Shown here one piece after another: positions 14,997 to 16,633 of a stretch of 34,671 nt of DNA. Source of the stretch: Thermodesulfobacteriaceae bacterium (lineage in GTDB: Bacteria > Desulfobacterota > Thermodesulfobacteria > Thermodesulfobacteriales > Thermodesulfobacteriaceae); NCBI GenBank assembly GCA_015494725.1, contig WGAR01000161.1:1-34671 (forward strand), written 5' to 3'. The notes beneath the pieces are model-generated. The model was not told where the DNA came from, made no database searches, and saw only the letters and a list, made by a program, of their open reading frames with translations. Positions within the stretch are counted from its first letter, which is position 1. Every line of letters starts with the position of its first letter. Made by a program: the position numbers and the translations under genes.

Positions 14997-15627
14997 CCAG
15001 AATCCTTATCTGTCGGCCGGAAACCTGGATGAGCCCCTCCTCGGAGAAGCGGGAAAGCACCCGGGAGAGGGTCTCGGGCACGGTCCCCAAAAGAGCGGCC
15101 AGTTCGCCTTTAGGGATCTCCAGCTCGAACTCCGGCCCCCGATGTTCCAAAAGATAGAGAAGATAGGCCGCCAAGCGTTCCGGGACCTCCTTTAAGGACA
15201 GGGAATCCACCAGTGCGGCCATGGTCCGGAGACGCAGGGAGAGGAGGGCGAGCATATTGAGGGCCAGCTCCGGGCGTCGGCGAATGAGGTCCAGAAAGGC
15301 CTCCCGGGGGAAAAAGAGGACCCGGGCCGGGGTGAGGGCCTCGGCCCAGGCCGGATATCGGGAACCGGAAAAGAGGGCCGCTTCGGCAAAGGCCTCTCCG
15401 GGCCCCAGGATATGCAGGGTCTGCTGGCGTCCCCGGGCCGAGAGTCTATAAATCTTAACCATCCCCTCCGCCACCAGATAAAACCCCCGGGCCTCCTCCT
15501 CGGCGGAAAAAATCACCCCGCCCTTATCATAGGAACGAAGCAGGGCTATCCCCGCCAGCCGGGAAAGATCCTCCTCGGAAAGCCCCCGAAACAGGGTGGA
15601 TTTTTCCAGGATCTTCTTTACTTCCAT
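14962..15627 (-). CDS. Crp/Fnr-family transcriptional regulator
   Basis: cNMP-binding fold (LFRGLSEEDLSRLAGIA...GEAFAEAALFSGSRYP) and HTH (GELAALLGTVPETLSRVLSRFSEEGLI). Start MEVKKILEKS; the longer ORF runs antisense through both tRNAs and is rejected. Confidence 0.93.
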   Translation of the reverse strand: MEVKKILEKSTLFRGLSEEDLSRLAGIALLRSYDKGGVIFSAEEEARGFYLVAEGMVKIYRLSARGRQQTLHILGPGEAFAEAALFSGSRYPAWAEALTPARVLFFPREAFLDLIRRRPELALNMLALLSLRLRTMAALVDSLSLKEVPERLAAYLLYLLEHRGPEFELEIPKGELAALLGTVPETLSRVLSRFSEEGLIQVSGRQIRILDEEGLRRIGRG

Positions 15628-15699
15628 AGAACTTATATTTAAGCCTAACTCCGGACTCTTGACAAAGGAGGCATCCCCTGAAAGATTATAGTAGATGCT

Positions 15700-15771
15700 G
15701 GCGGCGTAGCTCAGCGGTAGAGCGGGGATCTCATAAGTCCTAGGTCGGGGGTTCGAGTCCCTCCGCCGCCA
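15700..15771 (+). tRNA. tRNA with CAU anticodon (elongator Met most likely; Ile2 not excluded)
   Basis: GGCGGCG/CGCCGCC acceptor stem, GCTC..GAGC D-arm, GGGAT-CTCATAA-GTCCT anticodon arm, GGGGG-TTCGAGT-CCCTC T-arm; CCA not encoded. Confidence 0.95.
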
Positions 15772-15795
15772 TGGTAAAATAGGAGAAGCTAGAAC

Positions 15796-15870
15796 GGCGG
15801 CGTAGCCAAGTGGTAAGGCGACGGCCTGCAAAGCCGTGAATCCGGGGTTCGAATCCCCGCGCCGCCTCCA
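15796..15870 (+). tRNA. tRNA-Cys (GCA), CCA encoded
   Basis: GGCGGCG/CGCCGCC acceptor, ACGGC-CTGCAAA-GCCGT anticodon arm, CGGGG-TTCGAAT-CCCCG T-arm, U73 discriminator, terminal CCA. Confidence 0.97.
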
Positions 15871-15877
15871 TTAAGGA
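15865..15877 (+). repeat. Left copy of 13-bp direct repeat CCTCCATTAAGGA (includes tRNA-Cys 3' end)
   Basis: Identical to 16246-16258. Confidence 0.9.
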
Positions 15878-15889
15878 GCGAGGTAAAAA

Positions 15890-16255
15890 GTGTCCGCTGC
15901 TTCCAACCCCGGGTTCTCCGAGGAAGCCTTAAGGCCTCTGATAGAAAAGCTTGTCTCCGAGGCCGTGGCCAAATTTATCCAGGAGAACGAACTTCGGGCC
16001 CGGGAACTTTCCCTCATGGAGAGAATCATCCGGGTGGAGGAAGAACTGAAGGCCCTGCGCGAGATCCAGCTCTCCATGCTCCGCGAGATGAACGCTCGCT
16101 TTGAAGCCATGGACAAACGCTTTGAGGCTCTTCAGCGGGAAATGGACAAGCGCTTCGAGGCCATGGAGAAAAGGCTAAACTTTATGCAATGGTTCATGGG
16201 GGCGGGGTTCGCTTTTCTCACCATCCTGGTCACTTTATTCAGATTCCTCCATTAA
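15890..16255 (+). CDS. Small coiled-coil protein with C-terminal transmembrane helix
   Basis: GTG start after TTAAGGAGCGAGG; long charged helix with RFEAMDK/RFEALQREMDK/RFEAMEK repeats; C-terminal FMQWFMGAGFAFLTILVTLFRFLH hydrophobic helix. Confidence 0.8.
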   Translation: MSAASNPGFSEEALRPLIEKLVSEAVAKFIQENELRARELSLMERIIRVEEELKALREIQLSMLREMNARFEAMDKRFEALQREMDKRFEAMEKRLNFMQWFMGAGFAFLTILVTLFRFLH

Positions 16256-16258
16256 GGA
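16246..16258 (+). repeat. Right copy of 13-bp direct repeat CCTCCATTAAGGA
   Basis: Identical to 15865-15877; contains the stop codon of the coiled-coil ORF and the AAGGA ahead of queD. Confidence 0.9.
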
Positions 16259-16261
16259 AAG

Positions 16262-16633
16262 ATGTACGAACTTACCGTAAGAGACGAATTTTCCGCCGCT
16301 CACCAGCTCCGGGGCTACGAAGGGGCCTGCGAGCATCTCCATGGACACAACTGGAAGGTGGAGGTGGCGGTACGGGGCAGGGATCTCAACTCCATCGGGA
16401 TCCTCATCGATTTTAAGGAGCTCAAAAGGGCCCTGCGGGAGGTCCTGGGCGAACTCGATCACCGTAATCTCAACGAACTCCCGGCCTTTCGGGAACTCAA
16501 TCCCTCCTCGGAAAACCTGGCCCGGTATATCTTTGATCGGCTTCGGGAACGACTTGCCGGAAAACCGGTCAAGGTCTATCGGGTTACGGTGTGCGAAACC
16601 GAAAGGGCCTGTGCCAGTTATCTTGAGGACTGA
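16262..16633 (+). CDS. queD: 6-carboxytetrahydropterin synthase (QueD/PTPS family)
   Basis: 123 aa; FSAAHQLRGYEGACEHLHGHNWKVEV, LIDFKELK, LDHRNLNEL, PSSENLARYIFDRL motifs. Confidence 0.93.
   Translation: MYELTVRDEFSAAHQLRGYEGACEHLHGHNWKVEVAVRGRDLNSIGILIDFKELKRALREVLGELDHRNLNELPAFRELNPSSENLARYIFDRLRERLAGKPVKVYRVTVCETERACASYLED

Follow-up and report, generated by a model that had tools for sequence, protein, structure and literature searches.

A small gene for a predicted membrane-anchored coiled-coil protein, probably gained within its genus between tRNA-Cys and queD

A small gene, whose product is predicted to be a helical, membrane-anchored coiled-coil rod, has probably been gained within its genus in the tRNA-Cys–queD gap of a Thermodesulfobacteriaceae bacterium, and the 13-bp direct repeat that brackets it is probably coincidental. 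We give this reading as a whole a probability of about 75%. The gene lies in contig WGAR01000161.1, all 34,671 nucleotides of which were analysed and are called the window here.

Results and Discussion

The locus and its gene

The open reading frame (ORF) and its surroundings are laid out as follows.

15699..15772, + strand: tRNA-Met (CAT), located with ARAGORN; opens the presumed transcription unit, in a tRNA-Met–tRNA-Cys–queD order also found in relatives.
15796..15870, + strand: tRNA-Cys (GCA) with encoded CCA, located with ARAGORN.
15865..15877, + strand: left copy of CCTCCATTAAGGA, 6 nt of the tRNA-Cys acceptor/CCA end plus 7 nt.
15890..16255, + strand: ORF of 121 aa with head, RFEA-repeat coiled-coil stalk and C-terminal membrane anchor, assigned from purifying selection, family membership and the AlphaFold helix.
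16067..16183, + strand: predicted coiled-coil stalk with three RFEA units; orthologs differ in unit number.
16184..16249, + strand: predicted C-terminal transmembrane anchor, with the hydropathy maximum at residues 102-120; conserved across the family.
16246..16258, + strand: right copy of CCTCCATTAAGGA, comprising Leu-His codons, the stop codon and queD leader.
16262..16633, + strand: queD, 6-pyruvoyl tetrahydropterin synthase family (PF01242, Pfam E 2.4e-44).

The ORF starts with a GTG codon at 15890, stops with a TAA ending at 16255 and has its head at about residues 10-60. Its putative Shine-Dalgarno (SD) sequence is AAGGAG at 15873-15878, most of which is covered by the 7-nt extension of the left repeat copy. 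A promoter and terminator scan found no promoter-like site between the tRNAs and the ORF, upstream of tRNA-Met or elsewhere in the region; being blank over the whole region, the upstream side of tRNA-Met included, the scan is uninformative on read-through.

The ORF is found between tRNA-Cys and queD in four genomes of one genus: the source genome (G000), its sister species Thermosulfurimonas dismutans HyVt-483 (G005, contig DRMH01000012; 98% in SecA), G001 (JALWCD010000034) and G003. The source and sister genes differ at 18 sites over 120 aligned codons, with 1, 0 and 17 differences at codon positions 1, 2 and 3 respectively. The dN is 0.0036 and the dS 0.251, compared with 0.018 and 0.195 for queD of the same pair, so that dN/dS of the ORF is below that of queD. 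These substitutions show a genuine gene under strong purifying selection, and a spurious ORF was ruled out by dN/dS together with the conservation of orthologs. The orthologs are 121 (G000), 142 (G005), 135 (G001) and 104 (G003) aa long and differ by heptad units. The stalk has 3 RFEA units in the source genome and 6 in the sister species, where the three extra 21-bp units include a near-perfect 42-bp duplication. The 104-aa ortholog, which spans a contig break with overlapping contig ends, has lost part of its head as well.

Carriers and unoccupied sites

The tRNA-Met, tRNA-Cys, queD order is kept across most of the sampled taxonomic order. In all 24 unoccupied relatives measured, which come from several families (loci L003-L032), the gap between tRNA-Cys and queD is 7-39 nt, and in the three carriers that could be measured within one locus it is 391-452 nt. 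The unoccupied sites include two members of the genus (G002 and G004), a neighbouring genus (G008) and outgroups with a detectable tRNA-Cys. Because carriers and unoccupied tRNA-Cys–queD sites both exist in the same genus and order, the ORF is a real insertion. The short spacing, which leaves queD a very short leader, is itself a conserved arrangement of tRNA and mRNA.

The protein and its family

By alignment and profile searches, the ORF product is a member of a protein family, which an alignment of 24 members defined as a conserved head (RVEEELKALRE), a stalk with a variable number of RFEA-type units and a C-terminal hydrophobic anchor (QWFMGxGF). The best hydrophobic window of the protein is at residues 102-120. 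AlphaFold2, run with 24 aligned sequences, gave a single helix over residues 11-120 (mean pLDDT 86, pTM 0.40); as a single-helix monomer model it carries no information on oligomers or partners. In Pfam and NCBIfam, neither the ORF product nor two tested orthologs reached a curated cut-off, and the matches were low-scoring generic coiled-coil ones; a distant homolog (L050) exceeds the KxDL cut-off by 2 bits. Matches of the family profile in the PDB were to coiled-coil stretches of viral fusion proteins (E about 0.001) and were taken as compositional. A literature search on the protein family and on the tRNA-Cys–queD operon found nothing useful.

Several genera of the same taxonomic family have multiple copies; in others, G004 included, the searches found no member. 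Its other copies lie at dispersed, unrelated loci with locus-specific neighbours, and no operon partner recurs across unrelated sites. Judged from these alignments and profiles, it is an uncatalogued multicopy family of RFEA coiled-coil, tail-anchored proteins, and the ORF product is most likely an ordinary accessory membrane-anchored coiled-coil protein.

Several family genes sit at contig ends (G000:C45, G003:C187/C20, G013:C13, C48, C34, C17, C16, C22), and short-read assemblies therefore probably under-count the family. In three copies from the complete genome G009 (L186, L188, L192), stop codons interrupt the matched stretch; family copies thus decay. The flgE-adjacent copy L154 (G002:C2), of 79 aa, has a head without stalk and anchor and is probably broken. 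A second coiled-coil family (L151, L152, L156, L160), whose N-terminus resembles a signal peptide and whose tail past the membrane segment is longer, adjoins housekeeping genes such as that for enolase.

Gain or loss

The four copies at the tRNA-Cys site form one clade (support 97/88), made up of G000 with G005 and G001 with G003. Two other copies from the same genus fall outside it, one of them located between flgE and a ribonuclease R-like gene (gene names by inspection). A gain of the gene inside the genus is probable, since by parsimony it takes fewer events than repeated loss.

The alternative is that an older ancestor already had the ORF at this site and that G002, G004 and others lost it independently. 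Its best argument comes from G004, which groups with G000 and G005 in the SecA tree, inside the carriers, although its site is unoccupied. This placement requires either one loss or a misleading gene tree, which counts against a simple gain and suggests that loss probably does happen. SecA is the sole informative species-tree marker; the other markers are weak, the concatenation is weakly supported and its Mfd part is a wrong-frame fragment for G001. In line with loss, no family member at all was found in G004, whose assembly is a single contig and 99% complete. However, the tight tRNA-Cys–queD spacing in every one of the measurable unoccupied genomes and the smaller number of events under a gain both weigh against presence in the ancestor, and we consider it unlikely.

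Dispersed copies

In the Caldimicrobium-type genomes G019 (L166-L171) and G011 (L174-L175), eight aligned copies have in common an upstream block of about 65 nt, which has a sharp edge at GGCTTG and includes a promoter-like TATTATACT. A further 30-160 nt downstream are also common to the copies, and the sequence farther out is mostly unrelated, except that L168 and L174, being orthologous loci, have longer common sequence. The pattern is one of dispersed gene-plus-promoter duplication, and it is the most interesting lead from this work. In G019, the flanks of L166, L167, L169 and L172 also contain further repeats, in blocks as long as several hundred bp, within 1.5 kb of the copies.

One reading of the family is that of a mobile but non-autonomous gene, spreading together with its promoter as one unit, with the copy at tRNA-Cys as an old landing. 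The dispersal of copies without recurrent neighbours, and the sharp edge and unrelated outer flanks in G019 and G011, are in agreement with this. But the tRNA-Cys copy has no flank in common with the other copies of its genus, and neither terminal repeats nor a recombinase were identified. The left edge coincides with that of the promoter-like element, which selection alone could keep, and ordinary duplication suffices as an explanation. We therefore regard mobility as distinctly unlikely. The same low standing goes to a broader speculation, in which the ORF would be one of a family of small non-autonomous mobile genes, each a promoter with its coding sequence, that spread through thermophile genomes without a recombinase of their own and land where housekeeping operons have short gaps between genes, their stalks changing rapidly in length.

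The 13-bp repeat

The initial annotation had seen in this locus a candidate minimal gene cassette, integrated at the 3' end of tRNA-Cys, with the repeat as attL and attR. Its description of the DNA was accurate in sequence, coordinates and geometry: the repeat occurs at 15865-15877 and 16246-16258, the left copy consists of the last 6 nt of tRNA-Cys including the encoded CCA plus 7 nt (in agreement with the ARAGORN end at 15870), and the right copy supplies the stop codon of the ORF and the queD leader. Between the copies there is indeed no integrase, one ORF with family support being found there, which encodes a coiled-coil protein. The extra gene and the existence of unoccupied relatives also stand; integration by attL and attR is not supported.

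CCTCCATTAAGGA has exactly two copies in the 1.75-Mb draft genome, 381 bp apart. A 12/13 match to it (CCTCCTTTAAGGA) lies at 15186-15198, about 680 bp upstream, which shows that such motifs arise elsewhere in the window. Within 1 kb of each other, 9 overlapping 13-mer pairs (about 5 distinct repeats) occur in the window versus about 2-3 pairs in simulated sequence; a local exact 13-mer repeat is therefore not unusual here. A 13-mer that crosses the tRNA-Cys end and recurs nearby gave 0 hits in 2.08 Mb of simulated sequence, in a test that was chosen after the repeat had been seen. An exact 13-mer at the tRNA end is thus nominally unlikely by chance, which counts against a coincidence.

In G000 the longest stretch that the two junctions have in common is 13 nt; for G005, G001 and G003 the figures are 10, 5 and 4 nt, respectively. 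The left junction reads CCTCCAATCAAATTAGGGAGC in G001 and CCTCCAATAAAGAAGTAGG in G003, both of which lack the 7-nt extension of the left copy. The right junction reads TTTCTGCGCTGAGGG and TTTCTGCACTGAGTG, respectively, which encode Phe-Leu-Arg/His-stop through other codons (CTGCGCTGA in G001 and CTGCACTGA in G003 at the position of the right copy). Thus the repeat is incomplete in the sister species and not kept in the two other carriers; the initial annotation had itself named failure of the repeat to persist in an ORF-carrying sister species as an outcome contrary to its proposal. An empty site with a single CCTCCATTAAGGA, which it had also suggested looking for, was absent from the unoccupied relatives examined: their junctions are CCTCCATTTTTCGCC (G002), CCTCCAGATTTTCCAGG (G004) and CCTCCACTAATAATCC (G008), and what they have in common is CCTCCA, the tRNA end itself, to which G002 adds the next two T. 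An att repeat was rejected on these junctions of the three other carriers and of the unoccupied sites.

The exact placement of the repeat, on which the initial annotation had rested its case, is a consequence of the narrow gap: with only 7-39 nt free in the 24 unoccupied relatives, any insert is forced to abut the tRNA. Nor were related coiled-coil ORFs found at tRNA ends elsewhere, as no other family member has a tRNA closer than 200 bp. Phage, plasmid and viral collections were searched and no relatives of the ORF were found in them. The 13-bp repeat is, on this comparison, best read as coincidental and not as the mark of a mobile cassette. A minimal integrative cassette, recombined site-specifically into the tRNA-Cys 3' end by a recombinase acting in trans, would fit a genuine insertion just 3' of the tRNA and the exact repeat of 13 bp in G000 and 10 bp in its sister, but the repeat fails in G001, G003 and the unoccupied sites and includes just 6 nt of the tRNA, relatives of the ORF neither adjoin tRNAs nor occur in the mobile-element collections, and the unit has no integrase, so that this reading is largely refuted already and highly improbable.

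Proposed model

We propose that the gene was gained within the genus in the very short tRNA-Cys–queD space. It would now be a cistron of a tRNA-Met–tRNA-Cys–ORF–queD unit, most likely read through from the tRNA promoter; tRNA 3' processing would free its mRNA, and translation would start from its own SD, AAGGAG. The repeat would have arisen when the conserved tRNA acceptor end and the adjacent SD happened to match the Leu-His-stop codons and a second SD-like stretch. Most likely the product is a helical coiled-coil rod whose C-terminal helix anchors it in the membrane and whose head and stalk face the cytoplasm; it would oligomerise and serve there as a spacer or scaffold. The length of the rod would drift through gain and loss of 21-bp heptad units.

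A tempting story of tRNA integration is removed by this model: the compact tRNA-Cys–queD arrangement makes any inserted gene resemble a tRNA-targeted cassette. At the same time, an uncatalogued, multicopy and length-variable family of membrane coiled-coil proteins is brought to attention in Thermodesulfobacteria and other phyla.

Comparison with known systems

Like genomic islands and integrative elements at tRNA 3' ends, the locus has additional DNA immediately 3' of a tRNA gene, present in some relatives and absent from others. Unlike them, it lacks an integrase, its repeat includes just 6 nt of the tRNA and is not kept among carriers, and the unoccupied relatives have no single copy of the repeat.

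Proteins of the CCDC90-like/DUF1640 family (PF07798) have an N-terminal head, a coiled-coil stalk and a C-terminal transmembrane anchor. A similar general layout is predicted for the ORF family, from one modelled helix over residues 11-120 and a hydrophobic C-terminus in the ORF product. PF07798 had no match in the G000 genome and none to the ORF product at E up to 1; a match above the cut-off was found in G002 at a separate locus (C2:5535-5933).

Bdr proteins of Borrelia form a multicopy family in which the number of short coiled-coil repeats varies and the C-terminus bears a hydrophobic anchor. Although Borrelia belongs to a different phylum, the ORF family, compared by description only, resembles them in being multicopy, in its variable coiled-coil repeats and in its hydrophobic C-terminal anchor.
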